From Sulfurimonas sp. (GTDB taxonomy: Bacteria; Campylobacterota; Campylobacteria; Campylobacterales; Sulfurimonadaceae): a DNA stretch of 13,103 bases. The stretch is taken from positions 1 to 13,103 of the forward strand of contig JALSKR010000182.1 in assembly GCA_026988735.1 (NCBI GenBank). Direction: 5' to 3'. A program made the position numbers and the translations under genes. The notes beneath the pieces are model-generated. The model searched no databases. It saw only the letters and a program-made list of their open reading frames with translations, and was not told where the DNA came from. Below are positions 3 to 12,564 of the stretch, one piece after another (the first letter of the stretch is position 1; every line of letters starts with the position of its first letter).

Positions 3-1445
3 ATCACAAAGAATGTCAATGATGTTACTGTAGGTGAAATTGTTTTGATTAATTCAGGAGAGCGTGTTGCTCTTGATGGTGAGATACAAGAAGGAAGTGG
101 CAATTTTGATGAATCAAGTCTGACAGGGGAAAGTGATCCTGTTTTTAAAACTGCAGGGGAGAATGTTATCAGTGGAACGGTAAGTATTGACGGAGATGTA
201 AAATATAAAGTTACGAAAGATTTTGCACACTCTACAATGAGTAATATTGTTACTTTGCTTGAAAATGCAATGAATAACAAACCAAAAATACAGCAGTTGG
301 CAAACAGACTGAGTGAATATTTTTCAGAAGTAATACTGGCCCTCTCTTTTATAACTTTTATCGGATGGTATCTTTATTCGTCTGATTTTGAACACTCTTT
401 TATGATCAGTATCGCAGTTATTGTAATAGCATGTCCCTGTGCTCTTGCTCTGGCAACACCTGTTGCAACACTTGTCGGTCTTTCAATCGCTTCTAAAAGA
501 GGCATACTTTTTAAAGAAGCTGCACAGCTTGAAACAATGGCAAATGCAGATATTTTATTGCTTGATAAAACAGGAACAATTACAAAAGGACGACCTGAAG
601 TTGTCAATGAGGAAATATTTCTACCCTTTCATAAATCTATGCTTTATTCGTTACTGCTCAATTCAAAACATCCTATTGCCAAAAGTGTAGAAAAATATAT
701 TTTCGATGAAGATTTGGATCCCTTGGAGTTGGAAAGCTTTCAAAATATACCTTCGCAGGGTTTAAGTGCTATGGTTGATGGCAAAATGCTTGCCGGAGGA
801 AATGCAAAACTTATGCAGACTATAGGCATTGATGTCAGCAGTTCAAGTCAAAACAGTGAATTCTATTTTGCTTACGGTGGAGAACTTTTAGCAAAGTATG
901 AACTTTTTGATATGCCAAGAGAAGATGCAAAAGAAGCCATAGCAAAAATAAAGAAAATGGGTATAGAGATAATTATGCTCACAGGTGACCATGAAGAGAG
1001 TGCAAAAAAAGTGGCACAACTTGTTGGAATTGAGCAGTACAAATATGAACTGACGCCTCAGGACAAAGCTGCATATATAGATGCTTTACATGTAAATGGT
1101 AAAACGACTGTTATGGCAGGGGATGGAGTAAATGATATTTTGGCATTGGCAAGTTCGGATATTGCCATAGCAATGGGCAACGGAAGTGATATTGCCATAG
1201 AGGTGAGTGATGTAGTGCTTTTAAATGATACATTCAGTTCACTCTATGACAGTTTTAAAATTTCTAAAAAAACATTTACAATGATAAAAGAGAATCTTGC
1301 ACTTTCGTTTATTTATAACGGTATTACAATTCCGTTGGCAATGGCAGGGTATATCATTCCTTTGATTGCGGCAATTTCTATGAGTATAAGTTCCTTGATA
1401 GTTGTAGGCAACTCTATGAGAATTAAATTTGGATATAAGGATTAA
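3..1445 (+). CDS. ccoI: Copper-translocating P1B-type ATPase CcoI/FixI (5' end outside window)
   Basis: This is a CPx-type heavy-metal P-type ATPase of the inner membrane. CcoI/FixI moves copper across the membrane for cbb3-type cytochrome oxidase assembly. The reading frame is open from base 3, so the N-terminal metal-binding domain and first helices lie upstream. Visible in order are the actuator-domain TGES (123-134), the membrane CPC metal site followed by ALALATP (from 432), the phosphorylated Asp in DKTGT (564-578), a P1B-style KHP in the nucleotide-binding domain (about 667-675), TGDH (about 981-992), the hinge GDGVND (1119-1136) and two closing transmembrane helices. About 480 residues are present of a usual 700-800. 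The TTG at 45 is an internal Leu codon, not a start. The ccoS gene three bases downstream points to CcoI rather than a general CopA exporter. It contains one TTACATGTAA palindrome at 1086. Confidence 0.93.
   Translation: MTKNVNDVTVGEIVLINSGERVALDGEIQEGSGNFDESSLTGESDPVFKTAGENVISGTVSIDGDVKYKVTKDFAHSTMSNIVTLLENAMNNKPKIQQLANRLSEYFSEVILALSFITFIGWYLYSSDFEHSFMISIAVIVIACPCALALATPVATLVGLSIASKRGILFKEAAQLETMANADILLLDKTGTITKGRPEVVNEEIFLPFHKSMLYSLLLNSKHPIAKSVEKYIFDEDLDPLELESFQNIPSQGLSAMVDGKMLAGGNAKLMQTIGIDVSSSSQNSEFYFAYGGELLAKYELFDMPREDAKEAIAKIKKMGIEIIMLTGDHEESAKKVAQLVGIEQYKYELTPQDKAAYIDALHVNGKTTVMAGDGVNDILALASSDIAIAMGNGSDIAIEVSDVVLLNDTFSSLYDSFKISKKTFTMIKENLALSFIYNGITIPLAMAGYIIPLIAAISMSISSLIVVGNSMRIKFGYKD
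1086..1095. repeat. TTACATGTAA palindrome, copy 1 (in ccoI)
   Basis: A perfect 10-bp palindrome, extended to 12 bp (TTTACATGTAAA). It is read in frame as Leu-His-Val-Asn between the TGDH and GDGVND motifs. Confidence 0.9.
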
Positions 1446-1448
1446 AAA

Positions 1449-1691
1449 ATGAGTAGTTGGGTAATAGCCATGATGCTGGGTGTATCTATCTTTTTAGGAA
1501 GTATTGCTGTTGTAACTTTAATATGGGCGATAAAAAAAGGGCAGTTTGATGATTCTGAACACTTTTTAAATGCAGTCAAGTTTGATGGTACAGATGAATT
1601 AAATGATGCTTATGAAAAAGAGCAAAGAGCAGAAAAATTAAAAGAGAAAAAAAGAGAAGAATTACGAAAAAAGGGTTACAGACCTGAATAA
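1449..1691 (+). CDS. ccoS: Cbb3-type cytochrome oxidase assembly protein CcoS
   Basis: This 80-residue protein has one N-terminal transmembrane helix (about residues 5-27) followed directly by the sequence WAIKKGQFDD, the hallmark of the CcoS/FixS family. Family members are small inner-membrane factors needed for haem and copper insertion into cbb3 oxidase. The C-terminal half (about 55-80) is highly charged, rich in Lys and Glu, and probably forms a cytoplasmic helix. This tail is longer than in the shortest family members. The ATG lies three bases after the ccoI stop, and an AAGGA ribosome site sits within the end of ccoI, so the two are cotranscribed and probably translationally coupled. 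Confidence 0.92.
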   Translation: MSSWVIAMMLGVSIFLGSIAVVTLIWAIKKGQFDDSEHFLNAVKFDGTDELNDAYEKEQRAEKLKEKKREELRKKGYRPE

Positions 1692-1695
1692 AAGA

Positions 1696-1719
1696 TGAGC
1701 TACCTAAAAAGGTAACTCA
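1696..1719 (-). terminator. Probable rho-independent terminator of the cytochrome c gene
   Basis: The arms GAGCTACC (1697-1704) and GGTAACTC (1711-1718) pair with one exception. That exception is a G-U wobble in the minus-strand RNA but an A-C mismatch in the plus-strand RNA. Minus-strand transcription leaves the hairpin into TCTTTTATT, a U-rich tract, while the plus-strand side is A-rich. It therefore serves best as the terminator of the minus-strand cytochrome gene ending at 1730. Any stop for the ccoS transcript would be weaker. Confidence 0.6.
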
Positions 1720-1729
1720 AAAAATAGTA

Positions 1730-2017
1730 CTATTTACCGATAGTTTGAGCAAAAGCCTCTAACTCAGCATCAGAATAACGAGCAACCTGCCCTTTCATAA
1801 TACCTTTCATTGGTCCACCGAAAGTTCCAGCTTTATACCCTTTAAGAGCCTCAGCGATTTCAGCATGCGTCAAATCTTTAACAATTTTAGATTTACCCAT
1901 AGCTTTTTTCTCCCAGTGAGCACCATGACATGCAGCACAGGCTTTCCCGTTTACTGCAGCAGATGCAGCTGTAACCAATGCTAATGTAGCGATTGAAGCA
2001 ATTACGATTTTTTTCAT
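1730..2017 (-). CDS. Periplasmic monohaem cytochrome c, c553-like
   Basis: This is a 95-residue class I cytochrome c. A Sec signal peptide (about residues 1-20, KK then a hydrophobic stretch ending SAA) exports it to the periplasm. The haem-binding motif CAACH is at residues 27-31. The pattern GYKAGTFGG, then GIMKGQV, then YSDAEL resembles Desulfovibrio-type cytochrome c553, which makes Met74 the likely axial ligand. It probably carries electrons to a terminal oxidase or from a sulfur-oxidising or other dehydrogenase, and lies opposite the cbb3 assembly genes. The start is supported by AAGGAAA seven bases upstream and by the signal peptide. The gene appears monocistronic, with its own promoter (2047-2056) and terminator (1696-1719). 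The electron partner cannot be read from the sequence. Confidence 0.9.
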   Translation of the reverse strand: MKKIVIASIATLALVTAASAAVNGKACAACHGAHWEKKAMGKSKIVKDLTHAEIAEALKGYKAGTFGGPMKGIMKGQVARYSDAELEAFAQTIGK

Positions 2018-2046
2018 TTCATTTCCTTAATTTTAAATTCAACTTA

Positions 2047-2056
2047 TATTATAATA
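2047..2056. promoter_or_regulatory. Palindromic -10 element between the cytochrome c gene and hldD
   Basis: TATTATAATA is a perfect 10-bp palindrome that contains TATAAT on both strands (plus 2050-2055, minus 2053-2048). On the minus strand it gives a predicted 5' leader of about 24 bases before the cytochrome c ATG, with a ribosome site. On the plus strand the leader to hldD would be about 70 bases. No convincing -35 box is seen on either side, as is usual for Campylobacterota sigma-70 promoters. The minus-strand assignment is the stronger one. Confidence 0.5.
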
Positions 2057-2130
2057 GGTATAGTCTTAAATACTTGTTAATGAATTAAAAGGTATCATTT
2101 TATTAAAATTTATTGATTACGGATGGGAAG

Positions 2131-3138
2131 ATGCGATACACAGAAGATGATTTAAAAGACAAAACAATACTTATTACAGGCGGTGCGGGATTTATCGGTT
2201 CAAATTTAGCATTTTATTTTCAAGAAAACCATCCTGATGCAAAAGTTGTGGTACTTGATAGTTTTAGAAGCGGAGAGACACTCAGTAACGGAAATTTAAA
2301 AAGTTTTGGACATTTTAAAAATCTTATAGGTTTTGAGGGTGAAATAATCAGTGGTGATATTAATGATAAAGATCTGTTGCTTGATTTGGAAGTAAATTAT
2401 GACTTTGATTATATTTTTCATGAAGCGGCTATCTCTGATACGACAGCACAAGAACAGGACTTGATGATTAAAACAAATGTAAATGCCTATAAGGACCTGT
2501 TGGACTTGGCTGTTGCGCATAATGCATATATGATATATGCCTCTTCTGCGGCAACATACGGCAATACAGAATCCCCGCAGCGAGTCGGTAGAGAAGCACC
2601 AAACAATGTGTATGGCTTTTCAAAACTCTCCATGGATCATTTAAGTCGTGAATATATGAAAGAGTGTGACATAAACATAGTTGGACTGCGTTATTTTAAT
2701 GTTTACGGTCCAAGAGAGTATTTTAAAAATACAACAGCTTCTATGGTTTTACAGTTTGGACATCAGATACTTGCGGGAAAAAATCCTCGTCTTTTTGAGG
2801 GAAGTGATAAAATTCTTCGTGATTTTATTTATATAGAAGATATTATACAGGCAAATATTAAAGCGATGCAACCAAATACAAGCGGTATTTATAATGTAGG
2901 AACAGGCAAAGCAAGAAGTTTTCAAGATATTGTAGATATTTTGCAAAAAGAGTTAGGCACATCACTAGAATGTGAATATATTCCAAATCCTTTTGTTGGT
3001 TCCTATCAGTTTCATACCGAGGCGGATATTGCTACGACAAAAGAGGCATTAGGGTATGAGCCAGCTTATGAGATGGAAGAGGGCATAAAGGCTTATGTTC
3101 CTGAAATCAAGCGTATATATGAGACAGAAGTAAAATAG
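2131..3138 (+). CDS. hldD: ADP-L-glycero-D-manno-heptose 6-epimerase
   Basis: This is an NAD(P)-dependent extended short-chain dehydrogenase that converts ADP-D-glycero- to ADP-L-glycero-D-manno-heptose, the last step of nucleotide-heptose synthesis for LPS core. Counting from the ATG at 2131 (335 residues), the Rossmann motif TGGAGFIGSN is at 16-25, an SSAATYG segment carries the catalytic Ser/Thr region, and YGFSK is the YxxxK pair. RYFNVYGPRE is a typical HldD substrate-binding segment. The size fits the family. I chose the ATG at 2131, which is preceded by GGATGGGAAG, over the in-frame TTG at 2113. That TTG would add six residues with no better ribosome site. hldE follows with no gap, supporting one heptose operon. 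Confidence 0.92.
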   Translation: MRYTEDDLKDKTILITGGAGFIGSNLAFYFQENHPDAKVVVLDSFRSGETLSNGNLKSFGHFKNLIGFEGEIISGDINDKDLLLDLEVNYDFDYIFHEAAISDTTAQEQDLMIKTNVNAYKDLLDLAVAHNAYMIYASSAATYGNTESPQRVGREAPNNVYGFSKLSMDHLSREYMKECDINIVGLRYFNVYGPREYFKNTTASMVLQFGHQILAGKNPRLFEGSDKILRDFIYIEDIIQANIKAMQPNTSGIYNVGTGKARSFQDIVDILQKELGTSLECEYIPNPFVGSYQFHTEADIATTKEALGYEPAYEMEEGIKAYVPEIKRIYETEVK

Positions 3139-4569
3139 ATGCAAGTATTTAAAGAAGCAAAACCCAACATTTTGGTTGTGGGTGATTTGATGATTGATCA
3201 TTATCTGTGGGGGAGTTGTGAGCGTATCTCTCCGGAAGCTCCCGTTCAGGTTGTCGATATTCAAAAAGAAACAACGGTATTAGGCGGTGCAGGAAATGTA
3301 GTGAATAATCTGAAAGCTTTGGGTGCGAATGTCAGTGTCAGCAGTGTAATGGGTGATGATGACAATGGTAAAGAACTTGTAAAAATGCTTCATGCTATTG
3401 ATGTTGATACGAAAAATCTCATCATTGAAGAAAAAAGAAAAACATCAAAAAAGAGTCGGGTAATTGCAGTTTCGCAACAGGTTTTACGATATGACAAAGA
3501 GAGTAAAAATAACATTTCCAAAGAGAGTACGCAAAAGATTTTAGAATCCCTTGCCGATACAATTGCTATGTATGATGCTGTAATTTTGTCTGATTATGGC
3601 AAAGGTGTTTTGACAGAAGAACTCTCTGAGGGTATTATTGCGTTGGCAAAAAAACATAATGTAAAAGTATTGGTAGATCCGAAAGGGAAAGATTTTTCAA
3701 AGTATCGTGGTGCATATCTGCTTACCCCAAACAAAAAAGAGGCCGTATTGGCAACCGGCATAGACATAAAAGATGAAGGATCTTTAAAAAAAGCACTTTT
3801 AAAACTGAAAAATGAGTGTGATTTGGATGTTTCTTTGATAACTCTTTCAGAAGAGGGAATTGCAACATATGAAAAGGAAGTAAAAATCTTTCCAACTGTT
3901 GCCAAAGAGGTTTTTGATGTAACAGGAGCGGGAGATACTGTCATAGCATCCATTGCTTTTGCCTTAAGTGTCGGCAAAAGTCTTGAAGAGACAGCAGCAT
4001 TTGCCAATCTTGCTGCAGGTGTTGTTGTCGGTAAAATTGGTTCAGCAACGGTAACGATAGATGAGATAGAAGATTATGAAGCATCACTGCACAAAAGTAC
4101 ATCTGATGCACATATAAAAAGTTTTGAAGAGATTGACAAAATCGTACAGCGATACAAAAAGAATGGCAAAAAGATAGTCTTTACAAACGGCTGTTTTGAC
4201 ATCTTACATGTAGGGCATGTCAAATACTTGCAGATTGCAAAAAGTTTTGGAGATGTGTTGATAGTCGGGCTTAATTCCGATGCCTCTGTCTCGCGTCTAA
4301 AAGGTCCGAGCCGTCCTGTTAATCAGGCAGAGGACAGAGCCTATTTACTGGCTGCTCTTGAAGCGGTTGACTTTGTCGTGCCTTTTGAAGCAGACACCCC
4401 GTATGAATTGATAAAAATGATAGAGCCTGATGTGCTTGTCAAAGGTGGAGATTATGAAGGAAAAGAGGTAGTAGGTACGGAATTTGCTGGTGAATTAAAA
4501 CTGGTTGATTTTGTCGATGGCAAAAGTACAACAAAAACAATAGAAAAAATACAAGGAAAAATATGTTAA
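3139..4569 (+). CDS. hldE: Bifunctional heptose-7-phosphate kinase / heptose-1-phosphate adenylyltransferase
   Basis: This cytosolic enzyme phosphorylates D-glycero-D-manno-heptose 7-phosphate at C1 and later adenylylates the resulting heptose 1-phosphate. The N-terminal PfkB/ribokinase-type domain (about 1-315) shows GGAGNVVNNL (49-58), DYGKGV (152-157) and the catalytic GAGD (263-266). The C-terminal cytidylyltransferase-like domain (about 340-476) shows TNGCFD (349-354), the HVGH nucleotide-binding signature (357-360) and VKGGDYEGKEVVG. At 476 residues it is a full-length fusion like Escherichia coli HldE, whereas some bacteria keep two proteins. Its ATG directly follows the hldD stop. The gmhA and gmhB steps are not in this window. 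A one-mismatch copy of the TTACATGTAA palindrome (4204-4213) overlaps the HVGH codons. Confidence 0.95.
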   Translation: MQVFKEAKPNILVVGDLMIDHYLWGSCERISPEAPVQVVDIQKETTVLGGAGNVVNNLKALGANVSVSSVMGDDDNGKELVKMLHAIDVDTKNLIIEEKRKTSKKSRVIAVSQQVLRYDKESKNNISKESTQKILESLADTIAMYDAVILSDYGKGVLTEELSEGIIALAKKHNVKVLVDPKGKDFSKYRGAYLLTPNKKEAVLATGIDIKDEGSLKKALLKLKNECDLDVSLITLSEEGIATYEKEVKIFPTVAKEVFDVTGAGDTVIASIAFALSVGKSLEETAAFANLAAGVVVGKIGSATVTIDEIEDYEASLHKSTSDAHIKSFEEIDKIVQRYKKNGKKIVFTNGCFDILHVGHVKYLQIAKSFGDVLIVGLNSDASVSRLKGPSRPVNQAEDRAYLLAALEAVDFVVPFEADTPYELIKMIEPDVLVKGGDYEGKEVVGTEFAGELKLVDFVDGKSTTKTIEKIQGKIC

Positions 4570-5138
4570 AAAAAATAACTTTAGTAACAGTATCGGCTGT
4601 AGCAGCACTGGCAATGAATAGTGCAAGTATCAATATCAATAATGAAGATTTAGAGTTGAGTGCAAACCTTGACATTGGACAGTTTAATGAAAATGTGGAA
4701 CCTGAGACAATGTTTTTTGGTGCGAGATATTTAGATGCTGATAATAGTGATAGAGGGAACAATAATCCACTCTTTGAAGTAAATTTTTTACGACAAAAAG
4801 AGATACCAAGAACTTCTTTGAGTATTGGGTTGGGTGTAAAATTAAATTATACAAAAGATTATAGAACATTGCCATTGGGTATTGATGTTACTTATAGATT
4901 ACCTTCTACAACAGTTATTCCTATCTCTGTACATGCAAATGTCTATTATGCACCAAAAGTCTTGAGTTTTGATAATGCGAGTAAATATTTTGAAAATCGA
5001 GTAGAGTGTGATATTGAACTCATAGATAATGGTCATATTATTGTTGGATATAGAAATATTAGAACTGATTATGATGATGCAAGAGGAGATTTTATCTATA
5101 ATGAGTCAGGATATGTAGGCTTTAAATTTGAATTTTAA
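4563..5138 (+). CDS. Probable outer-membrane beta-barrel protein, YfaZ-like
   Basis: This 191-residue protein has an N-terminal signal peptide (about 1-21, LKK then hydrophobic, ending NSAS). The rest is alternating hydrophobic and polar beta-strand sequence, ending in Glu-Phe with the C-terminal aromatic residue expected of outer-membrane barrels. The patterns SANLDIGQFN, GARYLDAD and the closing GYVGFKFEF resemble the YfaZ family of poorly characterised outer-membrane proteins. The family call is from memory of its style and is moderate. The ATG overlaps the last seven bases of hldE, with AAGGAAAA upstream, so it is the third gene of the heptose operon and likely translationally coupled. 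Its role is unknown, and the context suggests the outer-membrane surface. Its stop codon overlaps that of the convergent waaF. Confidence 0.75.
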   Translation: MLKKITLVTVSAVAALAMNSASININNEDLELSANLDIGQFNENVEPETMFFGARYLDADNSDRGNNNPLFEVNFLRQKEIPRTSLSIGLGVKLNYTKDYRTLPLGIDVTYRLPSTTVIPISVHANVYYAPKVLSFDNASKYFENRVECDIELIDNGHIIVGYRNIRTDYDDARGDFIYNESGYVGFKFEF

Positions 5139-6109
5139 CACGATAGTTTTTTTACAGCCTCGATAACCTCAAAGGCTGTAATCCCTTTCATACACTCATG
5201 GTGTTTGAGAGGGCATTCTCGTTTCATACACGGGCTGCAATCTAACTCATGCCTGACAATTATACTCTTTTCATTTTTCCACTGTGATGTCTCTTTGTAC
5301 TTTGTAGGTCCAAATATTGCAACTGTCGGCACCCCATAGGCAGCAGCCACATGCATAGGTCCGCTGTCATTGGTGATAAAGAGCGAACACCCTCCTATGT
5401 TTGCACATAACTCTTCTATGTTAGTCTTCCCTGCTAAATTACTATAATTGTTTACATGTAAAGCTTGGAGGTTCTCTTCAATCTCTTTTGCCATTTCGAC
5501 TTCATTGGGTCCACCAAATATGATGATGTCATATTGGTCTTTATAAAATGCCGCAACCTCGGCGAAGCGTTCAGGGTACCATCTTTTTGCACTGCCGTAT
5601 GTTGCTCCTGCATTGATGCCAAGTGTCGGTTTGGCAAACTTTTTTGCTTGTATATAGAGTTGTAAAGCTGGAATTTCCTGATGGAAGTTATCTACATTTG
5701 CCATGGCAATTTGTGTGTATTGCTCCACCAAATGCTGGTTTGTTTGGATTTTTGGAGTGTGTGAAAGCAACACTCTTGAATGCCATGAGGCTCTTGCACA
5801 GCAGACGACGGTATCTGTAAAACGCAATAACAAAGAAGAGTATATCTGGTCTCTAAAGCTTACTGCTAAAGAAAATGTCCCGAGTTTTTTTGCAAGTTTG
5901 TAGGTTGCAAAAAGGCGTAAAGGGGCTTTTTTTGTTTCATCAACGATGGCATTTTCACAGAGTGGATGGTGCTTTAAGGCCTCTATGGTGACATAACTGC
6001 CAACAAAAGTGAATTTTGCATGGGGATAATATGTTGATAATAACTCTATAGCAGGTGTTGCCATAATAGCATCACCAAGCCAGTTTGGAAGAATAATCAA
6101 AATTTTCAT
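5135..6109 (-). CDS. waaF: ADP-heptose:LPS heptosyltransferase II
   Basis: This GT9 glycosyltransferase adds the second heptose to the LPS inner core at the cytoplasmic face of the inner membrane. Its 324 residues show the N-terminal PNWLGDAIMATPA (8-20), with Asp13 matching the conserved catalytic-region Asp of WaaC/WaaF. The central ADP-heptose binding region shows INAGATYGSAKRWYPERF (165-182), and NDSGPMHVAAAYGVPTVAIFGPT is at 247-269. A Cys-rich tail, CSPCMKREC (291-299) and HHEC, is typical of WaaF rather than WaaC. The ATG overlaps the stop of the upstream GH-like gene as ATGA, so the two form a minus-strand operon. The stop overlaps the convergent outer-membrane protein gene by four bases, with no room for a separate terminator. 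A TTACATGTAA palindrome encodes Leu217-Val219. Confidence 0.92.
   Translation of the reverse strand: MKILIILPNWLGDAIMATPAIELLSTYYPHAKFTFVGSYVTIEALKHHPLCENAIVDETKKAPLRLFATYKLAKKLGTFSLAVSFRDQIYSSLLLRFTDTVVCCARASWHSRVLLSHTPKIQTNQHLVEQYTQIAMANVDNFHQEIPALQLYIQAKKFAKPTLGINAGATYGSAKRWYPERFAEVAAFYKDQYDIIIFGGPNEVEMAKEIEENLQALHVNNYSNLAGKTNIEELCANIGGCSLFITNDSGPMHVAAAYGVPTVAIFGPTKYKETSQWKNEKSIIVRHELDCSPCMKRECPLKHHECMKGITAFEVIEAVKKLSC
5452..5461. repeat. TTACATGTAA palindrome, copy 2 (in waaF)
   Basis: A perfect 10-bp palindrome, extended to 14 bp here (CTTTACATGTAAAG on the minus strand). It encodes Leu217-His-Val-Asn220 of WaaF. Confidence 0.9.
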
Positions 6110-7395
6110 ATTCGCTCACTTGCATTGACTCTCTTTCCTACCTCTTTTGTTATGAAAATATATAAAGGAGAGGAGTTGATAGTAAGTATATCATCTTCTA
6201 TTTTTGTACCTGTTTTTGAATAAACTTCAAAAAAATCTTGATTTTGTAGTGTTGTCTCTTTGAGTGACCAGTGAATCTGTAAAAGAGTATCATCTAAAAG
6301 GACCTGCATGATGTAATATCCTCTTTTAATATCAAGCCGTAAAAACTGAGCATTTTTCAGTGTGGCAAACATATATTTATAGGTAAAAAATGCCTCTCTT
6401 TTTTTTATTCCTTTTCTGTTGTCTATCAAACCATATCCAGGTGCAATAAGCTGATGCCAGGAGACCGAATCAACTTGCTGCGAGGCAAAGGACAAAAGAT
6501 AATAACGCAGCATATAATCAGCATAAATTTCTTCACTGACACACTCATACTCACTCGTAGGAGCATAGGGTGCTGTATTAGAAAGTGGCCAGTTTACTTC
6601 GGTTACATGTAACTCCTGCTTTGTTTTTGGGCTTAGCCAGACAAGGGTGCTTAGCAGGGCTATTTTATCTGTGAGAGTAAAACCCAGTTGTGTGTTTTCG
6701 GGAGCTCCACGACGATCAACATACAAAAGAGCCGCAACTCCGTCATATTTGCATTTATAAAAGTTAAAAAGTGTGTGTACTGTAAAATGGAGTTCAAAAT
6801 CTATAACGCCGCTGCCAAGGAGTTTAATATCAGGAAAATATGCAGTTTTTAAATCATAAGCAACTTTGTAGAAGTTTACATATTCATTGACGGAAAAAAA
6901 GCCCCATTTCGTGCGGTTAATTGTAGAACCTATCTCATACGCTGCTACAGAATTCCCAAGTTCACTAAAGATTACATGTAAATCGTTTTTGAGCAGTGCT
7001 AAATCTTCTATGTGTTCACGGTCTTGTAAAATTTTTAGTGTAATTTTTTTGTCACTGTTTTGGGCTATAAAACTTTTTAGTCTCTGCAGTTGATGCATTT
7101 CCCAAAGCTTAAAACGGATAAGTATGCTTTTTACTTCGAGTTCTTCTAAAAGCTGTTGTGTCGCTTGTGTTTCTTTTTGAAAGTCCACACCCATAGAGAA
7201 AAACTCTGTTGTATGGATCTCTTTTCGTTTGACAAAAGGCATCATCAAGATGCTCAAAGGTAGGATAATTAAGGATGAAAAGAGTGTATAAAGTAGAGAG
7301 AAACGCTCTTTTTTTCGCATTCTCTTTTTATATGCTTTATCTGTGAGTAGTGCCGGTTGGTCGGAATAATCATCCCATTTAAAAGGTTTTTTCAT
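6106..7395 (-). CDS. Membrane-anchored clan GH-A glycosidase-like protein, acid/base site degenerate
   Basis: This is a 429-residue protein of uncertain function. Residues 1-30 are basic and polar, 32-55 form one transmembrane segment, and the rest looks like a TIM-barrel domain. YEIGSTINRTKWG (153-165) sits where clan GH-A glycosidases have an EIGNEPN-type motif after strand 4, but the acid/base Glu appears replaced by Thr. HVTEVNWP (263-270) looks like the strand-7 nucleophile motif, with Glu266 kept. The C-terminal 80 residues resemble a small beta domain. It lies directly upstream of waaF, with an ATGA overlap, so a role in core glycan binding, trimming or transfer is possible. I chose the ATG at 7393-7395. 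Starts further upstream (7434, 7461) would overlap the divergent gene and add residues unlike a normal N terminus. The fold assignment is inferred from motifs only. Confidence 0.6.
   Translation of the reverse strand: MKKPFKWDDYSDQPALLTDKAYKKRMRKKERFSLLYTLFSSLIILPLSILMMPFVKRKEIHTTEFFSMGVDFQKETQATQQLLEELEVKSILIRFKLWEMHQLQRLKSFIAQNSDKKITLKILQDREHIEDLALLKNDLHVIFSELGNSVAAYEIGSTINRTKWGFFSVNEYVNFYKVAYDLKTAYFPDIKLLGSGVIDFELHFTVHTLFNFYKCKYDGVAALLYVDRRGAPENTQLGFTLTDKIALLSTLVWLSPKTKQELHVTEVNWPLSNTAPYAPTSEYECVSEEIYADYMLRYYLLSFASQQVDSVSWHQLIAPGYGLIDNRKGIKKREAFFTYKYMFATLKNAQFLRLDIKRGYYIMQVLLDDTLLQIHWSLKETTLQNQDFFEVYSKTGTKIEDDILTINSSPLYIFITKEVGKRVNASERI
6603..6612. repeat. TTACATGTAA palindrome, copy 3 (in GH-like gene)
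   Basis: A perfect 10-bp palindrome, extended to 12 bp (GTTACATGTAAC). It encodes Leu262-His-Val-Thr265, directly before the putative nucleophile Glu266. Confidence 0.9.
6972..6981. repeat. TTACATGTAA palindrome, copy 4 (in GH-like gene)
   Basis: A perfect 10-bp palindrome encoding Leu139-His-Val-Ile142, shortly before the EIGSTIN motif. Confidence 0.9.
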
Positions 7396-7432
7396 AAGGG
7401 GAATTATATCAGGATTAAGATAAAATAACTCC
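7396..7432. promoter_or_regulatory. 37-bp divergent promoter region, both transcripts possibly leaderless
   Basis: Only 37 bases separate the two divergent ATGs. On the minus strand TATAAT (7408-7403) ends seven bases before the ATG at 7395. On the plus strand TAAAAT (7421-7426) ends six bases before the ATG at 7433. Neither start has a recognisable Shine-Dalgarno sequence at normal spacing. If these hexamers are the -10 boxes, transcription would start at or next to the A of each ATG. Box identity is inferred. Confidence 0.4.
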
Positions 7433-8398
7433 ATGAATATACTTATAGTAAGAACAGACAAACTAGGAGACTTTATAACGGCACTACCGACGATGTATGT
7501 ACTGAAAAAATATAATCCTCAAAATAAAATCATAGCACTTGTCGCTCCTCTCAATAAAGAGCTTGCCCTTACATGTAACTTTATTGATGAGGTGATTGTT
7601 GATGAAGTAAAGAGTTCTGTATCTGTTCTGGCAAAAAAAATCAAAGATGCAAAGATAGATGCTTCTATCACGCTTTTTTCAAACACAAGAGTGGCTTTTG
7701 CACAGTTTTTGGCAAGAGTTCCTCTGCGTATAGCTCCCGCTACAAAAATAGCACAAATTTTCTACAATAGGCGTATAAAACAGAGACGCTCTGAAGTTAA
7801 AATGGCGGAGTTTGCATACAATTTGGAGCTTGCAAAAGCACTTTTTCCAGATATTGATCTGCATTATGAAAAGCCTTTGCTTGCATTTGATGATGCCAAG
7901 GAGTATTATAAACAGTTTTGCAAAGAAAATAATATCACAAAAGAGGTTATAGCATTTCATGTCGGTTTTGGCGGTTCTTCAGATGCAAACTGGAACTTGG
8001 ATGAATATGAAGAGCTTATTCGTGAACTCTTACATGTAAACAAATATCAGGTAGTGCTTACTTTTGGACCAGATGAAAAAGCTTTACATGTAACTATGCA
8101 AAATCGTTTAAAAGATACAAATGCACTTTTTTATCTCTCAAATGAAGGCATAGTCAATTTTGCAAAGTTTATCAGCAACTTTAAACTCTTTGTTTCAACA
8201 TCGACAGGTACCTTTCATCTGGCTTCATTAGTGGGTACACCGACGATGACATTTTTTGGAGATTCAAAGTTTGCAAGTGCTGCAAGATGGAAAAGTGTAG
8301 GGGATGAAAAACTGCAAAAGCCTTATATGCTCCCAGTTGATGAGAAAAAACGAAAAGAGATTTTTGAAGAAGTAAAAAAAGAACTTACTGTTTTTTAA
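7433..8398 (+). CDS. GT9 heptosyltransferase-family glycosyltransferase
   Basis: This 321-residue GT-B glycosyltransferase of family 9 is probably a further LPS-core heptosyltransferase acting at the inner membrane. The N terminus IVRTDKLGDFITALPTM (5-21) carries the family's GD motif (Asp13). AFHVGFGGSSDANWNLDEY (174-192) is the sugar-nucleotide region. STSTGTFHLASLVGTPTMTFFG (255-276) is the C-terminal donor signature with His262. Compared with WaaF it lacks the Cys-rich tail, and Asn-Asp of the NDSG motif is replaced by Ser-Thr, so it is neither WaaF nor clearly WaaC; a WaaQ-like or species-specific role is possible. The start at 7433 has no visible ribosome site but a -10-like hexamer just upstream. 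The 3' end overlaps the convergent GT2 gene by 14 bases. It holds three TTACATGTAA copies, more than any other gene here. Confidence 0.85.
   Translation: MNILIVRTDKLGDFITALPTMYVLKKYNPQNKIIALVAPLNKELALTCNFIDEVIVDEVKSSVSVLAKKIKDAKIDASITLFSNTRVAFAQFLARVPLRIAPATKIAQIFYNRRIKQRRSEVKMAEFAYNLELAKALFPDIDLHYEKPLLAFDDAKEYYKQFCKENNITKEVIAFHVGFGGSSDANWNLDEYEELIRELLHVNKYQVVLTFGPDEKALHVTMQNRLKDTNALFYLSNEGIVNFAKFISNFKLFVSTSTGTFHLASLVGTPTMTFFGDSKFASAARWKSVGDEKLQKPYMLPVDEKKRKEIFEEVKKELTVF
7569..7578. repeat. TTACATGTAA palindrome, copy 5 (in GT9 gene, different phase)
   Basis: A perfect 10-bp palindrome. It is the only perfect copy read in another phase, as codons CTT ACA TGT AAC (Leu46-Thr-Cys-Asn49). Confidence 0.9.
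8030..8039. repeat. TTACATGTAA palindrome, copy 6 (in GT9 gene)
   Basis: A perfect 10-bp palindrome encoding Leu200-His-Val-Asn203. It lies 54 bases before copy 7. Confidence 0.9.
8084..8093. repeat. TTACATGTAA palindrome, copy 7 (in GT9 gene)
   Basis: A perfect 10-bp palindrome encoding Leu218-His-Val-Thr221. Confidence 0.9.
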
Positions 8399-9143
8399 GC
8401 TCTTTATTTAATTCATAAAGTTTTATATATTTGTAAAAATTCGTCACCATATGCGAATAGGCAATAATAAGCCCCACATATCCATCACGAAACCCCTGCT
8501 TGAAAAAATATGTTTTTATAAACGAGTAGGCACCATTGAAAAAGGCCTTTGCGGGAGAAGAACTTTTCTTGCCAACATTATTTTTAGCAAAAAGTGTTGA
8601 GTATCTATCAAGCTTGACTATAAAATCATGGATAGAGTTATAGGGGTAGTGTTTGACGCTTCCTTTGAGTGTTTGTATTGCAAATCCCTCTGTGATAATA
8701 TGTTCATGTACATCTTCATCTGTAAAAGAGGTTTTATTTCTATTATAGAGTCTTACGATAGTTTCATCACCCCAGCAGTGTTTGACCTGTACCTCTTTGT
8801 AAAAATTAATTCTGTGTATTTTATAAAGAGTACCTGCATCAAGTTGGAGCGTTTTGAGTGAAGCAATAAATCTTTCATCCAAAACTTCATCGCTGTCCAA
8901 AGAGAGAATCCAATCTTTAGATGCAAAAGAAGCAGCTAGATTTTTTGTTTTTCCAAAACCGAAAAAATCTCCAGATGTGATTGTGACATTTTTATATTTT
9001 TTTGCTATTGCTAAGGTATTGTCTTTTGAATTGTTTTCATATAAAATAACCTCTTCAAAATCTTGTAAACTTTGTAAGCATTCATCAAGCTTTGCTGCTG
9101 CATTACTTGCAATAATAACAACACTGATATCTTTAATCAACAA
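8385..9143 (-). CDS. GT2 glycosyltransferase, WaaE/KdtX-like
   Basis: This family 2 glycosyltransferase of 252 residues resembles the WaaE/KdtX LPS-core transferases, which add a glucose-type residue to core heptose. The GT-A domain opens with ISVVIIASNAAAKLDECLQS (6-25), ENNSKDNT (36-43) lies in the nucleotide-binding region, and SLDSDEVLDERF (81-92) holds the metal-binding DxD-type motif. VHEHI and the amphipathic C terminus (about 195-252) also fit this subgroup. The start is a TTG at 9143-9141 with AAGGAA about eight bases upstream, inside the kinase gene. It overlaps the kinase end by 11 bases, so it is probably translationally coupled to it. The actual sugar donor cannot be read from the sequence. 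Its end overlaps the convergent GT9 gene. Confidence 0.85.
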   Translation of the reverse strand: MLIKDISVVIIASNAAAKLDECLQSLQDFEEVILYENNSKDNTLAIAKKYKNVTITSGDFFGFGKTKNLAASFASKDWILSLDSDEVLDERFIASLKTLQLDAGTLYKIHRINFYKEVQVKHCWGDETIVRLYNRNKTSFTDEDVHEHIITEGFAIQTLKGSVKHYPYNSIHDFIVKLDRYSTLFAKNNVGKKSSSPAKAFFNGAYSFIKTYFFKQGFRDGYVGLIIAYSHMVTNFYKYIKLYELNKELKKQ

Positions 9144-9876
9144 CGGCTTTTCCTTTTAATCTTTTTTTCATATTCTTAAAATTTTTTAGTTTTTGTGAAA
9201 AATAGAGAGCTTTTTTAATGCTGTCTTCTTTATCTATATTGGCTATTGTTGCATATTCTTTGATAATGATTGTTAAATCTTCATCTTGCGCCCAGAGCAT
9301 GTTGAAGTTTTGTAATCTTTCTTTAACTGACAATACTTTAAACTTCATTCTGTTTATATCAACTACTTTAAAAGTATAATTGTTGTTTTCTTCTTTTATA
9401 AGAATATTTCCAGGACTGTAATCTTTATGGATGATATTGTTTTGGTGAAGGGCAAATGTGAATCTTGCAAATGCTTTGAATACTTTTTCTTTATCTTTAA
9501 AATTTTTGTTCGTTAACGGTTCTCGTATGGTAAAGTCATATTCAAATTTTTGGGCTATAAAGTAGCTTTCATTCAAGAGACCTTTTTTATAAAATTCAAT
9601 ATATCCAATAGGATTGGGGGTAAAATTACCTATTTTTATTGAGTTTTCATAAGATTTTTTTGCCTTTGTCTTTCTAAAATATGTATACAAAATCCGACGA
9701 AAAAAGTTTGGAACTTGAAAAGATTTGACAACAGTGTTTATTGTATTACAAGAGATTGTTTTTAATTCATTCCGTGCTTTGTGGATGGTACTTTGATTTT
9801 TGTTGAAATATTTTTGTATATTGAGTAGAAAATCTGTACATGTTTTTTTATAAAGGGGATTTATTTTATATTTCAT
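9133..9876 (-). CDS. LPS core kinase, WaaP/Kdo-kinase-like (protein kinase fold)
   Basis: This 247-residue small-molecule kinase has the eukaryotic-type protein kinase fold, in the group of LPS kinases such as WaaP, KdkA and InaA that phosphorylate heptose or Kdo in the inner core. HKDYSPGNILI (150-160) is the catalytic loop, with Asp152 as base and Asn157. VVDINRMKF (171-179) takes the place of DFG, with Asp173 for metal binding. KARNELK (33-39) resembles the family's N-terminal RN-IK motif. I chose the ATG at 9876-9874, with GAGAGA just upstream. The in-frame ATG at 9912 is overlapped by the predicted -10 box and would add 12 residues. It is the first gene of a two-gene minus-strand operon with the GT2. 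Base use is more AT-rich than in hldE. The substrate is inferred from family and context. Confidence 0.82.
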   Translation of the reverse strand: MKYKINPLYKKTCTDFLLNIQKYFNKNQSTIHKARNELKTISCNTINTVVKSFQVPNFFRRILYTYFRKTKAKKSYENSIKIGNFTPNPIGYIEFYKKGLLNESYFIAQKFEYDFTIREPLTNKNFKDKEKVFKAFARFTFALHQNNIIHKDYSPGNILIKEENNNYTFKVVDINRMKFKVLSVKERLQNFNMLWAQDEDLTIIIKEYATIANIDKEDSIKKALYFSQKLKNFKNMKKRLKGKAVVD

Positions 9877-9893
9877 AGATCTCTCATAATTAA

Positions 9894-9921
9894 TTTTGTA
9901 TAATCTTTTCATTATACAAAA
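9894..9921. promoter_or_regulatory. Symmetric divergent promoter on an 11-bp perfect inverted repeat
   Basis: TTTTGTATAAT (9894-9904) and ATTATACAAAA (9911-9921) are perfect inverted repeats around a six-base spacer, CTTTTC. Each arm contains a consensus -10 box. Plus TATAAT at 9899-9904 predicts a start near 9911, 23 bases before the GT9 TTG, with GGGA as ribosome site. Minus TATAAT at 9916-9911 predicts a start near 9904, 28 bases before the kinase ATG. The two promoters overlap and would compete for polymerase. The inverted repeat could also be a dimeric regulator site. It has no U-tract on either side, so it is not a simple terminator. Confidence 0.6.
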
Positions 9922-9933
9922 AAAGGGATTATA

Positions 9934-10956
9934 TTGAAGTTAAATTTTAGAAGAGGCAGCGCTTATGCTTCAAAATATGCCAGAGAATATCTAAAAGGTA
10001 AAAAGCCAGAAGATATAAAAAACATAACTGTTATTCGTCATGCAGCTATAGGCGATTTTATGAATATCCGTCCTTTTTTAATAGAGTTACGCAAATTTTT
10101 CCCAAATGCAAAAATAACCTTAAGTGTCATCAAGCATTATATGTACGGTATTCCCGAAGATTTGATAGATGAGTTACATGTAATGAGCAGGTACAAAGAA
10201 GATGGTTCCAAAACCGGAATTTTAACAAGGATTAAAGAAGCAAAAAAATTACCTTCTCAGGATATTATATTTGATTTGACTGACAGTACTATCACGCTGT
10301 TACTTGTTTTTTTAGCCAAGGCAAAACTCAAAATCGGTTATCCGTACAGGGCAATCAGAAGAGCTTTTTTTGATATAGCAACGCTGCGAAGTGATTTTGT
10401 TGTAGAGGCTGTGAGTGTTGAGCATATGCTCAATATTCTCGGAGCAAAAACTGCGTATCCCTTACAATATGGATATGAGAAGCAGTATCCAAAACATGAT
10501 AAAAAAAGAGTTGTCTATTTTGCCGGTGCTTCTGTTGAAAATAAATGTTGGGAGAGAGAAAAATTTAAAGAGTTGATACAGATGATGGCAAAAGAGTACC
10601 CTGATTATGAGCATATAATACTTCAGGGAATAGGTGAAAACGAAAAGTTTTATGATATTTATGAACCTGTAAGTCATCTTGAAAATGTCAAACTTCAGCA
10701 AAAAATGAGTATAGAAAAGGTAATGCAGTTTTTGGCAGACAGTCGACTTTTGGTTTCGAATGATACCGGCATACGAAACATGGGAATCGCCTTAGAAATA
10801 GCAACAGTAGGTATATTTTTTCAAATTCCACCATTTCGGTACTGGCCACGAGAAGAAAAACATGACTGTGTGTTTACTATAGAGTATGATTCCCCATCAG
10901 TTGAGGCTGTTTTTTGTAGTGCAAAATCAATGATGGAAAAGCTTTATGAAAAATAA
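9934..10956 (+). CDS. Atypical GT9-family glycosyltransferase
   Basis: This is a 340-residue GT-B protein of the heptosyltransferase (GT9) type. VIRHAAIGDFMNIRPFL (33-49) is the N-terminal motif with GD at 40-41, preceded by a basic extension of about 30 residues. VVYFAGASVENKCWEREKF (193-211) matches the sugar-nucleotide region. NDTGIRNMGIALEIATVGIFF (276-296) matches the C-terminal signature, but the usual G-P-x-H is G-I-R-N, so the conserved His is missing. Donor or function may therefore differ from true heptosyltransferases. It starts at a TTG with GGGA five bases upstream and a TATAAT box at 9899-9904. It heads a plus-strand glycan operon, and its end overlaps the next ATG by 11 bases. 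One TTACATGTAA copy encodes Leu81-Val83. Confidence 0.8.
   Translation: MKLNFRRGSAYASKYAREYLKGKKPEDIKNITVIRHAAIGDFMNIRPFLIELRKFFPNAKITLSVIKHYMYGIPEDLIDELHVMSRYKEDGSKTGILTRIKEAKKLPSQDIIFDLTDSTITLLLVFLAKAKLKIGYPYRAIRRAFFDIATLRSDFVVEAVSVEHMLNILGAKTAYPLQYGYEKQYPKHDKKRVVYFAGASVENKCWEREKFKELIQMMAKEYPDYEHIILQGIGENEKFYDIYEPVSHLENVKLQQKMSIEKVMQFLADSRLLVSNDTGIRNMGIALEIATVGIFFQIPPFRYWPREEKHDCVFTIEYDSPSVEAVFCSAKSMMEKLYEK
10174..10183. repeat. TTACATGTAA palindrome, copy 8 (in atypical GT9 gene)
   Basis: A perfect 10-bp palindrome encoding Leu81-His-Val-Met84. Confidence 0.9.
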
Positions 10957-12022
10957 AAATATACTTGAAGTCTGTCTCTCTCCCGGGCTTGGAGGTTTAG
11001 AGATGTTTGTAGCATCTTGTTATGATGCTTTTTCAAAATATACATCATGTAAGGTTGTAGTAGCACCGGAGACAAAACTGGATAAGTATCTTGAGATTGA
11101 AGACAAATATCACATAAAGAGAAGTAAGTTTTTCCCTTTTTTGCCTGCTTGGAGATTGGCGAAGTATATTGATAAAAATGATATAGAGATAGTGCATTTT
11201 CACTGGACGCGGGATATGATAACAGTTGTTTTGGCAAAGTTGTTCAGCAAAAAGAAACCAAAGATAGTACAAAGTCGTCATATGGGAATGACACGTTTTA
11301 AAGATGACTTGTATCACAGATACATGTATAAAAATATTGATATGATTCATGCTGTAACAAAGAGGGTAGAACAAGAGTTGAGAAAATTTATACCTGAAGA
11401 TGTGCGGCCAAAGATAGATATGGTTTATCTTGGTGTGGAGATTCCAAAAGTTGATGAAAAAAAAGTTGAAGCTTTGCAAAAAAAATATAATTTCAAGGAT
11501 GATTTTGTTGTTGGTATTATCGGACGAATAGAGGAGGGTAAGGGACAACATCTTCTTATAGAAGCTCTTGACAAACTTGATAAAAATGTAAAAGCATTGA
11601 TAGTCGGTGATGTTATGGATGATGACTATTTGTCTGATCTGAAAGATAAAGTGCAAGAGCAAAATTTGAACAATCGAGTCGTTTTTTCGGGATTTACCAA
11701 AGAGGTAAATGAACATATGCAGCTTTGTGATATTCTTGTTTTAGCAACAAAAAATGAAACATTTGGGCTCGTAATTATCGAAGCAATGGCAAACAAAGTA
11801 GCAGTCATTGCAACAAACAATGGCGGACCTTTAGAGATTATAGATGATGGTGTTGATGGGCTTTTGTTTGATGGAGGTAGTGATGATTTGGCTAGGAAGA
11901 TAGATTATTTGTATAGAAATATGGATATGAAAAACTTGTTCTCTCATGCAGGTTATGAAAAAATAAAAGAAAGTTTTTTTTATAAAAAACAACTTGAAAA
12001 ACTTTACAAGGCAATTGTATGA
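10946..12022 (+). CDS. GT4-family glycosyltransferase
   Basis: This 358-residue retaining GT-B glycosyltransferase belongs to the GT4 (Glycos_transf_1) family and uses a nucleotide-sugar donor at the cytoplasmic face of the membrane. SPGLGGLEMF (12-21) is the glycine-rich acceptor loop. FHWTRDM (85-91) and QSRHMGMTR (109-117) lie in the N-terminal domain. IIGRIEEGKG (191-200) opens the donor domain, and ETFGLVIIE (271-279) is the E-x7-E type donor motif, followed by GGPLEII. All expected core motifs are present and the length is normal, so it should be active. It overlaps the upstream GT9 by 11 bases and the next gene by ATGA, so it is the second gene of a tightly coupled operon. Sugar specificity is unknown. 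Confidence 0.87.
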   Translation: MKNKNILEVCLSPGLGGLEMFVASCYDAFSKYTSCKVVVAPETKLDKYLEIEDKYHIKRSKFFPFLPAWRLAKYIDKNDIEIVHFHWTRDMITVVLAKLFSKKKPKIVQSRHMGMTRFKDDLYHRYMYKNIDMIHAVTKRVEQELRKFIPEDVRPKIDMVYLGVEIPKVDEKKVEALQKKYNFKDDFVVGIIGRIEEGKGQHLLIEALDKLDKNVKALIVGDVMDDDYLSDLKDKVQEQNLNNRVVFSGFTKEVNEHMQLCDILVLATKNETFGLVIIEAMANKVAVIATNNGGPLEIIDDGVDGLLFDGGSDDLARKIDYLYRNMDMKNLFSHAGYEKIKESFFYKKQLEKLYKAIV

Positions 12023-12564
12023 AAAAATTTACATTGATACAAAAGATTAGAAATAAAATTCGTATAAAAGGCAGTGTAGAGTTGATAATTGCAAAAAATG
12101 CGAAAATTGTTCATTGTGATATATCTATAAAGGGAGAAAATAACAAACTTGTTATAGCAGGTGGAGCAACTGTGCGATATACACAAATAGAAATTTTAGG
12201 AGATAATTGTATTATTGAAATAGGCCGAAACTCAATAATTGGGCATGGTTGCTACCTCTCTGCCAAAAATGGAAGAAAGTTGTTTATTGGAAATGAGTGT
12301 ATGCTTTCAAGAAATGTAAAAATTATGACTTCTGATGGACATGTTATTTATCAAAATGGAAGAGTGATTAATGCTGCAAAGGATATTATTTTAGAAAAGA
12401 ATATTTGGGCAGCCGATAATGTCACAATACTTAAAGGTGTTACAATCGGTGAGGGCAGTATTCTTGGAATAAACGCAACTGTTACGCAGAATATACCTGC
12501 ATATAGTATTGCCGCCGGTAATCCGGCTAAAGTTGTTAAAGAGAAAATACTATGGAAAAAATAG
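12019..12564 (+). CDS. Left-handed beta-helix (hexapeptide) acyltransferase
   Basis: This 181-residue acyltransferase of the hexapeptide-repeat superfamily is probably an O-acetyltransferase in the WbbJ/NodL/maltose-acetyltransferase style that uses acetyl-CoA. Imperfect hexapeptide repeats run from about 45 to 160 (for example IIEIGRNSIIGHGC, 65-78, and VTILKGVTIGEGSILG, 135-150). His108 in TSDGH is the likely catalytic base. AAGNPAKVVKEK (165-176) is the standard C-terminal CoA-site closure. The first 20 residues are basic. The ATG overlaps the GT4 stop as ATGA, so it is translationally coupled. In this context it likely acetylates a surface-glycan sugar. Serine acetyltransferase is unlikely because its N-terminal domain is missing. 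Confidence 0.87.
   Translation: MKKFTLIQKIRNKIRIKGSVELIIAKNAKIVHCDISIKGENNKLVIAGGATVRYTQIEILGDNCIIEIGRNSIIGHGCYLSAKNGRKLFIGNECMLSRNVKIMTSDGHVIYQNGRVINAAKDIILEKNIWAADNVTILKGVTIGEGSILGINATVTQNIPAYSIAAGNPAKVVKEKILWKK

Follow-up and report, generated by a model that had tools for sequence, protein, structure and literature searches.

Iterated words with dialects in sulfur-cycling Campylobacterota, a likely DNA uptake sequence system

Short sequences that mark DNA as belonging to the cell's own kind, the uptake sequences, are known from Neisseriaceae and Pasteurellaceae, and the known forms of both the DNA uptake sequence (DUS) and the uptake signal sequence (USS) are asymmetric. In Campylobacter jejuni DNA uptake is gated by methylation through CtsM, i.e., the discrimination relies on a methylated short site and not on an over-represented word. 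Here we analyze a stretch of 13,103 nucleotides from Sulfurimonas sp. (positions 1 to 13,103 of contig JALSKR010000182.1, assembly GCA_026988735.1; the window refers to this whole stretch), in which a preliminary description had noticed a highly iterated 10-bp palindrome, TTACATGTAA. As in the Neisseriaceae DUS (Frye et al., 2013; PMC3630211), we found a high-copy 10-mer with a sharp consensus, mostly one dialect per genome, relatives that differ and now and then a genome that has two dialects or lacks any. The DUS dialects share a CTG core and follow phylogeny in that study, whereas here the words can be unrelated between neighboring clades and one of them is a perfect palindrome. The USS (PMC1626085, PMC12616744) is likewise a short over-represented word tagging own DNA in competent bacteria, with a predicted receptor; the word and the phylum are different here. 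A third parallel is the highly iterated palindrome HIP1 of cyanobacteria, which likewise gives way to different words in certain related genomes (Elhai, 2015; PMC4390886).

The excess of TTACATGTAA is evident at every scale. Eight perfect copies are found in the window, against a mean of 0.04 and a maximum of one in 200 dinucleotide shuffles; the core ACATGT occurs 12 times, eight of them inside the full palindrome, so that this count was also reproduced. The source genome (a 1.86-Mb assembly, 80% complete) holds 322 copies versus one of the reversed control word, and the motif thus survived the genome-wide count that had been suggested as a check; by simple arithmetic from both counts, the density in the window is about 3.5 times the genome mean. 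We counted the word in 60 relatives and in 397 genomes sampled across the phylum. At least 100 copies were present in 26 of the 397, distributed among the Sulfurospirillaceae (family f20 of our sample, 19 of 22 genomes), the Sulfurimonadaceae (f1, six genomes) and family f11 (one genome), and the top count outside these three families was 10. These 26 carriers have from 107 to 1496 copies, the maximum being that of genome G292 (four of the control), i.e., approximately 70–490 per Mb. These figures are lower than the 943 to 5918 copies given for DUS and the 1000–2000 per Mb given for HIP1 in the relevant parts of PMC3630211 and PMC4390886, respectively. The control word remained at chance level in the source genome and in the phylum sample, and a chance origin is ruled out by the shuffles together with the genome and phylum counts. 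In samples of six genomes TTACATGTAA was the top 10-mer by excess. Cultured carriers among the sampled genomes are Sulfurimonas autotrophica OK10 (G175) and Sulfurospirillum deleyianum 5175 (G170), neither known to be pathogenic, and within the Sulfurospirillaceae G192 has only 49 copies genome-wide. A restriction site was discarded, given that avoidance would be expected and a strong excess was seen instead, and so, for TTACATGTAA itself, was a polar chromosome motif such as Chi or the FtsK orienting polar sequences (KOPS), since a perfect palindrome cannot be polar. The single genome of f11 (G377, genus g72) contains 1059 copies in a family otherwise nearly devoid of the word (78, 9 and 1 in the three genomes of genus g64).

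The word is maintained at the DNA level in most of the Sulfurospirillaceae sampled and in some of the Sulfurimonadaceae, with copies that range from hundreds to about 1500. When synonymous codons were shuffled, the copies seen in coding sequences far exceeded those expected (33 vs. 1.9 in G011, 20 vs. 1.25 in G292 and 9 vs. 0.72 in G000); across ten sampled carriers the expectation was 0.36–1.93 copies, and the remaining seven behaved alike. This bears on the least favored of the alternatives, that of a protein-level or mutational artefact, either Leu-His-Val tripeptides written with preferred codons or context-dependent mutation. Most of the in-gene copies of G011 (25 of 33) are indeed in the Leu-His-Val phase, but the phase bias can be taken as a coding constraint and not as a protein signal because the third phase places a TAA stop in frame; it is rare inside open reading frames (ORFs), with none of nine copies in the G000 sample and two of 20 in G292. 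The tripeptide itself looks like a by-product of the word: in G011, 26 of 28 Leu-His-Val were encoded as TTACATGTA, and the tripeptide is found 4 times per 100 kb in G192 compared to 15 in G292 and 18 in G252. Furthermore, 14 of the 34 copies in the G292 sample are outside ORFs of at least 100 amino acids, although 89% of that sample is coding (in G011 they are 4 of 37), and the reversed word stays at chance. With the synonymous shuffles leaving so few expected copies, a codon or tripeptide effect was dismissed, the motif passed the codon-model check proposed beforehand, and the artefact appears extremely improbable.

Comparison of orthologous sites, scored over aligned sites only, leads to the same conclusion. 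Starting from G292, the word was intact in G252 at 15 of 20 aligned sites (of 34) over a flank identity of 81%, and at 15 of 18 in the reverse direction, while in G170 it was intact at 9 of 10 with 78% identity. Orthologous copies are therefore kept well above the identity of their flanks in these comparisons. In contrast, none of 15 aligned sites was intact in G192 compared to G292 at 79% identity. The view of the preliminary description that selection acts on DNA and not on protein is thus supported, with the proviso that it may be drive instead of selection. The consensus is sharp in the two largest samples, which had 8 single-mismatch against 37 perfect copies (G011) and 11 against 34 (G292), the mismatches of such copies being mostly at the outermost base. 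For comparison, a single-mismatch figure of +21% appears for kingDUS in Neisseriaceae in the relevant part of PMC3630211. The word has an extended form, cTTTACATGTAAAg, in samples of Sulfurospirillaceae and Sulfurimonas, with T preferred just outside and then C, and in G408 and G163 a C is preferred immediately outside TTACATGTAA.

Relatives with low counts were sampled and searched blindly for over-represented 8- to 10-mers, and several turned out to have words of their own. These were CTACATGTAG in G032, TGCGTGAG in G062 and G088, TCCACATGCC, extended to TTCCACATGCCAA, in G331 and, from 40-kb samples only, CTGCGTTT in G016 and TGGCGTTT in G067; G255 had TTACATGTAA together with TGACATGT-type variants. 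The flanks printed for these words (at most 14 per word shown) differ among copies, so that they are not long repeats, and a longer interspersed repeat as their source was rejected. Like TTACATGTAA, the asymmetric ones among them exceed the synonymous shuffle in coding sequences (30 vs. 1.9 in G062, 21 vs. 1.3 in G088, 14 vs. 1.0 in G331, 22 vs. 1.8 in G016 and 13 vs. 0.7 in G067), and TGCGTGAG is found within genes in both orientations and several frames. TTACATGTAA and CTACATGTAG are palindromic; TGCGTGAG, TTCCACATGCCAA and CCACATGCC are asymmetric. Some parts are shared, since TTTACATGTAAA and TTCCACATGCCAA both have ACATG between TT and AA ends, and TGCGT is common to TGCGTGAG and CTGCGTTT. 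Five TGCGTGAG sites were also present in a 20.8-kb locus of S. indica NW8N.

Three words were counted over 135 genomes of the genus Sulfurimonas, with a cut of 100 copies that was chosen after seeing the counts. At least 100 copies were found for YTACATGTAR in 22 genomes, for CCACATGCC in 15 (maximum 1427 vs. 2 of the control) and for TGCGTGAG in 7 (maximum 962 vs. 33). In all, 44 of the 135 passed the cut for one of the three words, none for two and 91 for none. There are intermediates, such as G508 with 141 YTACATGTAR and 50 CCACATGCC, G246 with 99 YTACATGTAR and G482 with 99 TGCGTGAG. These dialects, i.e., relatives that use different words with no genome having two of the three at 100 copies or more, are new here.

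How the dialects are distributed was followed on a single-gene tree, built from an AAA protein encoded in the competence-type cluster, with 45 rows (39 hand-picked from 80 loci plus six genomes of the G series) labeled with the words found in loci of about 8–21 kb, 0.2 sites per kb being the cut. The label "none" was given to 27 of the 45 rows and is unsure because it comes from such short loci: L247, with three TTACATGTAA, fell just under the cut and was labeled "none". L246 has TCACATGCC, counted under CACATGCC, and L286 was labeled TAGCATC. The TGCGTGAG rows (G062, S. indica and a third row) formed a clade with support 100/99 that adjoins the pair holding G011, a TTACATGTAA genome, with 97/88 for the joint branch, and the rows with the TACATGTA word imply at least seven label changes on the tree. 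Neighboring Sulfurimonas clades can thus carry unrelated words.

Copies in the hundreds, a sharp consensus and a single word in each species, with various words across relatives and its loss in individual species, together make up the pattern of uptake sequences (PMC3630211). The most likely explanation, and one that we hold with reasonable though far from complete confidence, is that TTACATGTAA is a DNA uptake sequence marking own-kind DNA for natural transformation, similar to DUS and USS and with dialects of its own. A surface component of the competence apparatus would prefer fragments carrying the word, recombination would then spread and repair it by molecular drive, and a change in receptor specificity would allow a new word to accumulate while the old one decays, a course that G192 may illustrate. 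Of the three roles contemplated in the preliminary description (uptake signal, methylation site or protein site), uptake is favored because related species use different, partly asymmetric words, while methylation is disfavored by the methyltransferase searches presented below. Going one step further, we lean towards the view that an uptake sequence system evolved independently in the sulfur-cycling Campylobacterota, in which the words would switch between unrelated sequences even between neighboring Sulfurimonas clades; since one of them is palindromic, a transforming fragment could be read in either orientation, and a switch of word may hinder gene exchange and so help to split species.

The machinery for transformation is widespread. 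ComEC (PF03772) was detected in 53 of 56 genomes, the misses (G000, G033 and G034) being incomplete assemblies that include that of the window, and T2SSF (PF00482) in 62 of 62. A T2SSE-T2SSF-AAA cluster, similar to the cts cluster used for transformation by C. jejuni, was confirmed with Pfam in G011 and G292, in the latter with a secretin too, and the same cluster was recognized by the order and length of its ORFs in G062, G163, G331 and G192. As receptor candidates we assessed the prepilins encoded some 5–10 kb from comEC in seven genomes, between what we take, from the translations, to be priA and genes of the flagellar rod. These loci (L310, L311, L323, L324 and L330) hold two or three small prepilins; the N-terminus of the first is constant, and its body varies (24–49% identity among the seven genomes). 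Mobile DNA was also considered, given that an atypical (low) density in it has served as a criterion for DUS in Neisseriaceae (PMC7371117). A mobile-looking contig of 39.9 kb in G055 had one TTACATGTAA in the 20 kb read versus 8.7 predicted from the genome mean. Its ORFs include presumably transposase-like, DinB-like and defence-like ones, and near-identical DinB-like ORFs lie at both ends of the stretch (C2:1-20000; L334).

A number of observations weigh against an uptake sequence. The palindromic symmetry of TTACATGTAA is itself at odds with the asymmetry of DUS and USS. Near-copies are commoner in the smaller samples, with 13 against 22 perfect copies in G377, 10 against 8 in G408, 5 against 6 in G163 and 3 against 10 in G000, and ortholog conservation is weaker from G170 to G292 (9 of 14) and from G292 to G255 (1 of 7). 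Spacing, a check that the preliminary description had called for, was run on 66 listed sites of G011 and proved random (coefficient of variation 1.04), so that regular spacing was rejected, although nine gaps were shorter than 300 bp where 3.4 were expected. Close inverted pairs are rare, one among 36 CCACATGCC sites and one among 68 TGCGTGAG sites (some of the loci overlap), and a role as inverted-pair terminators found no support. Many low-count genomes have no word visible in their samples. Competence genes are equally common in genomes with and without the word and, being present in carriers and non-carriers alike, they permit the model without proving it; the presence of ComEC or T2SSF was accordingly discarded as a correlate. 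In the seven prepilin genomes, G011 excluded, body identity of the first prepilin (pilin A) was 34, 38, 33, 24 and 37% for pairs with the same dialect and up to 49 and 46% for pairs with different dialects, i.e., its variation does not track dialect and gave no lead to the determinant; the second (pilin B) tracks relatedness, which neither supports nor excludes it as the dialect reader. The core TACATGTA is still in excess in the 20-kb stretch of G055 (six copies). Methyltransferase islands are often foreign, yet 17 hand-picked methyltransferase loci of carriers, with 25 copies over 62.6 kb, were not poor in TTACATGTAA, and they did not clearly surpass the T2SSF loci either (9 in 38.0 kb), so that no depletion was seen around these genes. 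Finally, a literature search on natural competence in Sulfurimonas, the genus to which it was confined, Sulfurospirillum lying outside it, gave no relevant paper among the matches listed.

Two other explanations have to be weighed against the uptake sequence. A HIP1-like palindrome coupled to methylation would involve a methyltransferase acting on ACATGT or CATG and a linked repair or replication process that accumulates the sites. The word does contain CATG and ACATGT, the kind of palindromic site read by type II methyltransferases, and HIPs have been tied to methyltransferases (the relevant part of Elhai, 2015; PMC4390886). We searched for PF02086, PF01555 and PF00145 and, in carriers only, for PF07669. 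The latter matched one or more proteins in 13 of 14 carriers, so that these might have in common an enzyme of some rarer type. However, G011 (397 copies) and G175 (340), both single-contig and 100% complete, have none of the first three families, so that a methyltransferase of these families common to all carriers was ruled out; G391 (412 copies) and G228 (238) also lack them, although PF07669 is stronger there (up to 92.8 and 70.5 bits, respectively). The genome of the window has one PF00145 protein. The PF07669 matches of G011 and G175 are HsdM-like proteins of type I systems (PF02384, a family that was not searched genome-wide, and HsdM_N), one per genome above the NCBIfam hsdM cut-off, plus one small non-HsdM methyltransferase each. 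The sole match in G163 is a small methyltransferase nearest to the TrmN and PrmC models and below their cut-offs. Type I recognition sites are two-part, unlike TTACATGTAA. Besides the regular HsdM, G011 and G175 encode a divergent HsdM-like protein (495 and 504 amino acids; L335, L338) with a weak resemblance, below cut-off, to MAD2-type defence methyltransferases. As complete carriers are without three of the four families and the fourth corresponds to type I or small enzymes, a methylation site is disfavored, and a HIP1-like origin likewise because some words are asymmetric (TGCGTGAG and TTCCACATGCCAA are not palindromes), unlike in HIP, where alternative words are palindromic. Hence, of the parallels proposed initially, that with HIP1 is weaker than that with DUS and USS. 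The C. jejuni CtsM system belongs to the same phylum and has a similar transformation apparatus, but neither G011 nor G175 yielded a methyltransferase that would match. Overall, the coupling to methylation seems weakened by these searches and we regard it as quite unlikely. In the part of PMC4687349 that mentions S. deleyianum, this is for GATC only.

The other candidate is a binding site for a dimeric protein involved in chromosome organization, replication or recombination, with a specificity that drifts between species. The perfect dyad symmetry of TTACATGTAA, the hundreds of sites genome-wide and their conservation at orthologous positions would be consistent with such a role. On the other hand, one would expect conservation of a protein of this kind, but neighboring clades use unrelated words, and G192, a member of the Sulfurospirillaceae, has 49 copies genome-wide and an intact word at none of the 15 sites aligned with G292. 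Asymmetric dialects are also ill-suited to a symmetric dimer, and no candidate was identified, so that a protein site appears unlikely.

Whatever the mechanism, this is a real and widespread system of species-specific iterated words, unreported in the literature searched. No report of iterated words in Campylobacterota was found among the matches listed, in a search that left most subscription journals and bioRxiv outside, and the literal TTACATGTAA led to no paper on iterated words, judged by title. If the uptake sequence is confirmed, a further uptake system in another phylum would offer tests of how such words originate, of the co-evolution of receptor and genome, and of whether dialect change isolates gene pools. 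The dialect would also help in transforming sulfur-cycling bacteria and in recognizing which DNA in their genomes is foreign.

Other repeated words were seen in the samples. AGATGCTA in G374 and G383, with 19 and 22 sites in coding sequences vs. 4.9 and 5.7 shuffled, was left out of the dialects; together with TGATGCTA (L152-L155, L286) it is at about four times the synonymous-shuffle mean and is perhaps a weaker or decaying dialect. Outside f1, f20 and f11 there was no clear dialect in eight samples of 28–40 kb (four of f9, three of f6 and one of f16); in one genome of f6, G223 (L180-L181), AAGTGCGTAA was found 6 times in 27.7 kb with 0.1 expected. Repeated words are present as well in the samples of G279 and G414. 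G397, G373, G401 and G246 were represented by short contigs only, the piece of G401 falling outside the word scan. In G016 (C14:1-40000; L146-L147), repeat-like GTCATTCTGG, GTCCAGAATG, TGAGATTCTG and CTCATGAG accompany CTGCGTTT and are perhaps an element similar to repetitive extragenic palindromic (REP) sequences. TTAAGAGTTA in G237 (L118-L119), with 13 both-strand counts versus 0.0 and overlapping words of equal count, is probably one local repeat array. A 40-kb sample of G109 (f1, genus g24; L186-L187) had TCGATACGG 10 times versus 0.3, plus TCGAT words in excess.

Within the window, all eight perfect copies were found where they had been reported, inside ORFs of both strands. Those in the Leu-His-Val phase are at 1086..1095 (ORF 45-1445, forward), 5452..5461 (ORF 5135-6109, reverse), 6603..6612 and 6972..6981 (ORF 6106-7461, reverse), 8030..8039 and 8084..8093 (ORF 7433-8398, forward) and 10174..10183 (ORF 9934-10956, forward). 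The copy at 7569..7578, also in ORF 7433-8398, is in another phase and reads Leu-Thr-Cys-Asn, so that the ORF coordinates bear out the seven-to-one division described previously. That the codon following Leu-His-Val always starts with A is true, but this A is merely the tenth base of the motif. Both relatives that had been pointed out are there, TTACATGTAG at 4204..4213 (ORF 3139-4569, forward) with one mismatch, and the ACATGT core at 11322, lying within ATACATGTAT (starting at 11320), which has two mismatches to TTACATGTAA. The motif-dense region from 2113 to 12564 seems, from the translations alone, to be a heptose- and glycosyltransferase-like gene cluster.

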